Of a DNA stretch of 64,000 nucleotides, positions 1 through 319 are shown piece by piece. The notes under the pieces are model-generated. The model saw only the letters and a program-made list of their open reading frames with translations. It had not been told where the DNA came from and searched no databases. Positions within the stretch are counted from its first letter, which is position 1. Each line of letters begins with the position of its first letter. The stretch spans positions 65,001 to 129,000 of the forward strand of contig LDXX01000004.1 in the NCBI GenBank assembly GCA_001442925.1. Direction: 5' to 3'. Origin of the DNA: Candidatus Kryptonium thompsonii. Lineage in GTDB: Bacteria; Bacteroidota; Ignavibacteria; Kryptoniales; Kryptoniaceae. Position numbers and translations under genes: made by a program.

Positions 1-306
<306 letters not shown>

Positions 307-319
<13 letters not shown>

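Follow-up and report, generated by a model that had tools for sequence, protein, structure and literature searches.

The window, a stretch of 64,000 nucleotides from a 2.59-Mb genome in 18 contigs (98% complete), opens on the 5′ end of a 16S rRNA gene (positions 1–319, minus strand; E. coli ~1–306) that runs on leftward past the window. A cmscan alignment of positions 319–1 to RF00177 scores 255.4 bits over model positions 1–306, well above the gathering score of 50, and marks the fragment as bacterial 16S, namely the gene's 5′ fifth, with the rest of the 5′ domain intact. The 27F primer site (293–312, minus strand) reads AGAGTTTGATGGTGGCTCAG, with two mismatches to both 27F and 27F-YM; since the alignment crosses it without an indel, GG replaces C18–M19 in register and at unchanged length, as the first-pass annotation had claimed. 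The same alignment puts G18 at window position 302 and G19 at 301 (minus strand; the plus-strand letter is C at both), on the 5′ strand of helix 2. Throughout the genome AGAGTTTGATNNTGGCTCAG has a single match, at this very site, and, stretches reading N excepted, no other rrs copy with the standard site is present. An independent genome of the same genus, G004, has the identical GG (contig C1, 289–315) in a 5′ portion of 314 nt that is 93% identical to the window, which rules out a sequencing slip as its source. The remaining exact matches to the site among 100 relatives, in families f2 to f19, all read CC.

The organism's identity can be addressed with Kryp56, a FISH probe designed, according to the probe description in PMC4737851, to be specific for Candidatus Kryptonia, a hot-spring lineage. 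The probe, CCGTGTCCCTGACTTGCA, matches the window at 247–264 with zero mismatches (plus strand in probe sense, rRNA target on the minus strand) and also matches G004, and the order-mates shown differ there. A second likeness to the published Kryptonia 16S lies in mismatches to universal SSU primers: two each to 27F and 27F-YM in the window and G004, and two each to 907R, 926R and 926wF in G004. The exact probe match supports, at the level of sequence, the assignment of the window's organism to Candidatus Kryptonia, a link that the earlier annotation had marked as inference.

The partner strand can be read within the genus, where an RF00177 search found 16S only in G004 and in a further genome, G002. 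In G004 the gene is split across two contigs, the GG piece lying at the start of C1 and a second piece at the end of C9; the latter reads GAAACTCAAACCAATTGACGGGG, in which the site GAAACTCAAACCAATTGACGG gives C916–C917. Past the 16S, C9 continues through tRNAs, 23S and 5S to a phosphoglycerate mutase (iPGM) gene (53027–54598) that lies beside the operon in the window genome too (C4:58348–59931), and C1 bears an rrs upstream region homologous to the window's. Because C9 leads to the shared iPGM flank and C1 to the window-like upstream region, we take the two pieces to be one locus; GG and CC together therefore yield a helix 2 of U17–A918, G18–C917 and G19–C916, intact but with two pairs flipped. 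By comparison, the 18 class-mates with a readable gene have C18–C19 paired with G916–G917. The compensating C916 and C917 that had been predicted are thus both found in the closest readable relative, every other complete G18 gene is compensated as well, and we infer that the window's own gene has CC at 916–917. Taken together, the GG very probably reflects a natural, compensated inversion of two helix 2 base pairs in the central pseudoknot, fixed in the window's Kryptonia genus.

At the end of G004 contig C9 (L065 ~9515–9606), about 90 nt at the expected 16S positions ~340–430 are unlike 16S, owing to an insertion or an assembly error; an Rfam search of this odd fragment end for an intron gave RF00177 only.

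The 16S of G002 is canonical (C18–C19, G916–G917) and thus an apparent counter-example. Its contig bears an iPGM gene 95% identical to that of the window genome, followed by 5S and by a 23S whose last ~500 nt match G004 at 96–100% identity; beyond these, 23S identity to G004 drops sharply to 71–86%, and the DNA past its 16S is unlike the window. A Kryptonia 5S and 23S end is joined there to a foreign 23S–16S (L068, C8:125001–133037, junction near 3333–3433). Given the break in 23S identity and the unrelated 16S flank, we rejected this gene as a counter-example: judged by its sequence, the operon is most plausibly a chimera made in assembly, and it provides no evidence against the flip. Naming such a chimeric MAG from its 16S would mislead.

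Misassembly could also have worked in the opposite direction, the window's 5′ end or the CC of G004 being stitched in from another organism, for example co-occurring Armatimonadota with GG and CC. MAG rRNA operons are error-prone here, that of G002 being chimeric and the 16S of G004 both mosaic and split, and Armatimonadota have an identical 30-nt 5′ motif. We nevertheless regard such an artefact as very unlikely, as the window and G004 resemble each other far more closely at their 5′ ends than either resembles the Armatimonadota genes (93% versus just 71–74% identity), the Kryptonia-specific probe site and homologous upstream DNA occur in both, and the 3′ part of the G004 gene is 84–88% identical to class-mates versus about 80% to Armatimonadota.

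C18–G917 is among the most conserved ribosomal pairs. Its description in the first-pass annotation as almost universal holds insofar as the pair is rarely departed from, but G18 recurs in several lineages. A scan for GTTTGATGNTGGCTCAGNNYGAACGCT across 84,980 species genomes, a set that contains neither the genome of the window nor those very close to it, returned 13 stretches, and all three with a readable partner are compensated: Armatimonadetes SKYB36 (G18–G19/C916–C917, in one contiguous gene), the ‘Proteobacteria’ MAG CoA8_C15.2 (G18–U19/A916–C917) and Armatimonadetes CG06 (G18–C19/G916–C917). A search for C917 within the phylum added Armatimonadota G170, again with G18–G19/C916–C917 in one contiguous gene. 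Complementarity between 17–19 and 916–918 is thus present in G004 and in four other G18 genes, and these five genes span at least three phylum-level groups. Across 23 aligned genes, G18 and C917 occur in the same five rows and in no others, for which the chance is 1/33649 if the rows are independent. C917 occurs in 3/291 Armatimonadota genomes (SKYB36, CG06 and G170) and 1/116 of CoA8_C15.2's class (CoA8_C15.2 itself), with 0/395 sampled genomes elsewhere in the window's phylum, 0/117 in the Bacilli order of G104 and 0/5 in the order of G103, two genomes that also have G18; these rates are lower bounds, because a genome whose 16S is missing from the assembly was scored as negative. Each of the remaining G18 stretches is a partial gene at the end of a contig; they come from several MAGs of a gut Bacilli clade, a Prevotella MAG, a Bacteroidetes MAG and SKW126, which is close to G170. 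Literature searches on C18/G917 found no report of a natural flip of this pair, and its recurrence in several phyla is new here.

The gut Bacilli clade has G18–C19 and a common upstream region, and its contigs end before 916; we predict that it carries C917.

SKYB36 and G170, though of another phylum, have the same double flip as Kryptonia, and their mismatches to 27F and 907R/926R are identical to those of Kryptonia. A 30-nt 5′ motif is identical between Armatimonadota and Kryptonia, and an Armatimonadetes lineage is named as a co-occurring partner of Kryptonia in the relevant passage of PMC4737851. Both points could be accommodated if GG and CC became common to Kryptonia and hot-spring Armatimonadota via gene conversion of short rRNA tracts instead of by independent mutation. 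We find this highly improbable, however: the motif otherwise equals the bacterial consensus, the genes are just 71–79% identical as wholes, two distant tracts would have to be transferred jointly, and the flip is also seen in other lineages with different 19–916 pairs.

In the compensated inversion that we favour, C18–G917 and C19–G916 would have become G18–C917 and G19–C916 with U17–A918 kept, the sole change being the orientation of two G–C pairs. Helix 2 would work as usual, 17–19 pairing with 916–918 and fixing how the 5′ domain, the central domain and the head lie relative to one another. Because the route to the flip would pass through a mismatch, such flips are expected to be rare, in agreement with what is observed. 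That the flip recurs, and that each observed partner is compensated, shows that the constraint there falls on pairing rather than on the identity of the bases, which agrees with work on E. coli attributed to Brink (1993) and Poot (1996, 1998), whose helix 2 mutants reportedly regained function when complementarity was restored. As described in the papers that cite them, those mutants are a likeness to the Kryptonia helix, with the difference that they were engineered whereas the Kryptonia flip is natural. Passages of PMC4371863 describe helix 2 as the connection of the 5′ end with the linker that joins the central domain to the head, and those of PMC3900107 (a review) and PMC5329695 state that in E. 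coli its complementarity matters and not its sequence; a flipped G–C pair should therefore function, and by this analogy the ribosomes of Kryptonia would work normally. The last two papers also report that a C19–U916 mismatch is harmful in E. coli, and PMC5329695 that helix 2 mismatches impair its ribosomes. A real GG that lacks compensation in the window's organism, so that helix 2 would contain mismatches or the gene would be a copy in decay, is extremely unlikely even though the CC was read in a relative and not in the window's own partner strand, given such impairment in E. coli (PMC5329695), the CC at 916–917 of a congener with the same GG, the intact remainder of the 5′ domain and the lack of any other 16S 5′ site in the genome, which is 98% complete. 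A natural parallel is the 19–916 covariation of Proteobacteria (A19–U916 or C19–G916; PMC5329695, in the passages on this pair), which involves the same helix, keeps complementarity and affects 27F (Bac8f); there, pair 19–916 alone varies and C18–G917 is constant, whereas in Kryptonia 18–917 flips too. The Kryptonia helix is thus no new kind of system but an uncommon natural form of an established pairing, found in a lineage whose primer mismatches were already on record.

As a by-product, both flipped strands would fall inside common primer sites (27F; 907R/926R) and so add to a PCR blind spot. Every primer mismatch found in G004 lies in the flipped helix, among tested sites that exclude 338, which falls in the gap between the contigs. 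The compensating change was correctly placed by the first-pass annotation inside the 907R/926R site, and its expectation that the lineage would be missed by standard 16S PCR stands for 27F and for 907R, 926R and 926wF but not for 515F-Y and 806R-B, to which G004, as to 1392R and 1492R, has no mismatch. Passages of Eloe-Fadrosh et al. 2016 (PMC4737851) give many universal-primer mismatches as the reason why Kryptonia was missed, and an excerpt of PMC9039060 states that Kryptonia and 92% of Armatimonadetes escape amplicons through primer mismatches. The main-text passages of PMC4737851 do not describe the 27F and 907R mismatches as halves of one flipped helix; the structural cause is what we add here, and the supplements of PMC4737851 or PMC9039060 may list the positions. 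Two separate primer mismatches of a blind-spot lineage thereby become one structural event, which helps to explain why Kryptonia were overlooked. The flip also predicts who shares the blind spot, namely the hot-spring Armatimonadota, which show the same mismatch pairs as Kryptonia plus some at other sites, and the gut Bacilli clade; all of these should be visible with 515F-Y/806R-B.

Within the G004 piece on C9, 16S positions ~515–865 are 353/353 identical to G056 and 99.2% identical to G065, two genomes of genus g19 in family f12; outside the tract, their identity to G004 is 73% in the 5′ part and 84% in the 3′ part of the 16S. This tract arose either by recombination within 16S genes of different families or as a mosaic of the assembly, and a mosaic in the G004 16S upstream of 916 is possible. 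The gene that shares the tract has GG, not CC, at 916–917, and the tract, in the central domain, ends about 45 nt short of 916. Such an end point would be expected if recombinants with the partner's G916–G917 opposite G18–G19 could not survive; we consider it unlikely, though worth stating, that the C18–G917 inversion is a natural state which the ribosome core has repeatedly adopted and which also restricts 16S exchange.

Upstream, the 16S leader and 5′ end (290–352, minus strand) are predicted to form a long hairpin (MFE −29.3 kcal/mol, z −6.7), and the same fold is predicted for G004 (z −7.1). In this model, leader AACUCUC pairs with 16S GAGAGUU, a strand of helix 1, and leader GAGCUGC with 16S 19–25 including G19, the leader base opposite G19 being C. 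Competition between leader and helix 1 is known in E. coli from the account in PMC4371863, and the Kryptonia leader pairing, as predicted, is a variant of that known switch. Farther upstream of rrs lies an AT-rich, promoter-like element, TTGACAAAGACAAAAAAATTTATTATATTTGTATTTG (437–473, minus strand), with near-identical copies at several loci of the genus genomes, which probably acts as a promoter; its TATATTTG portion has what we take to be a resemblance to Bacteroidetes-type −7 boxes.
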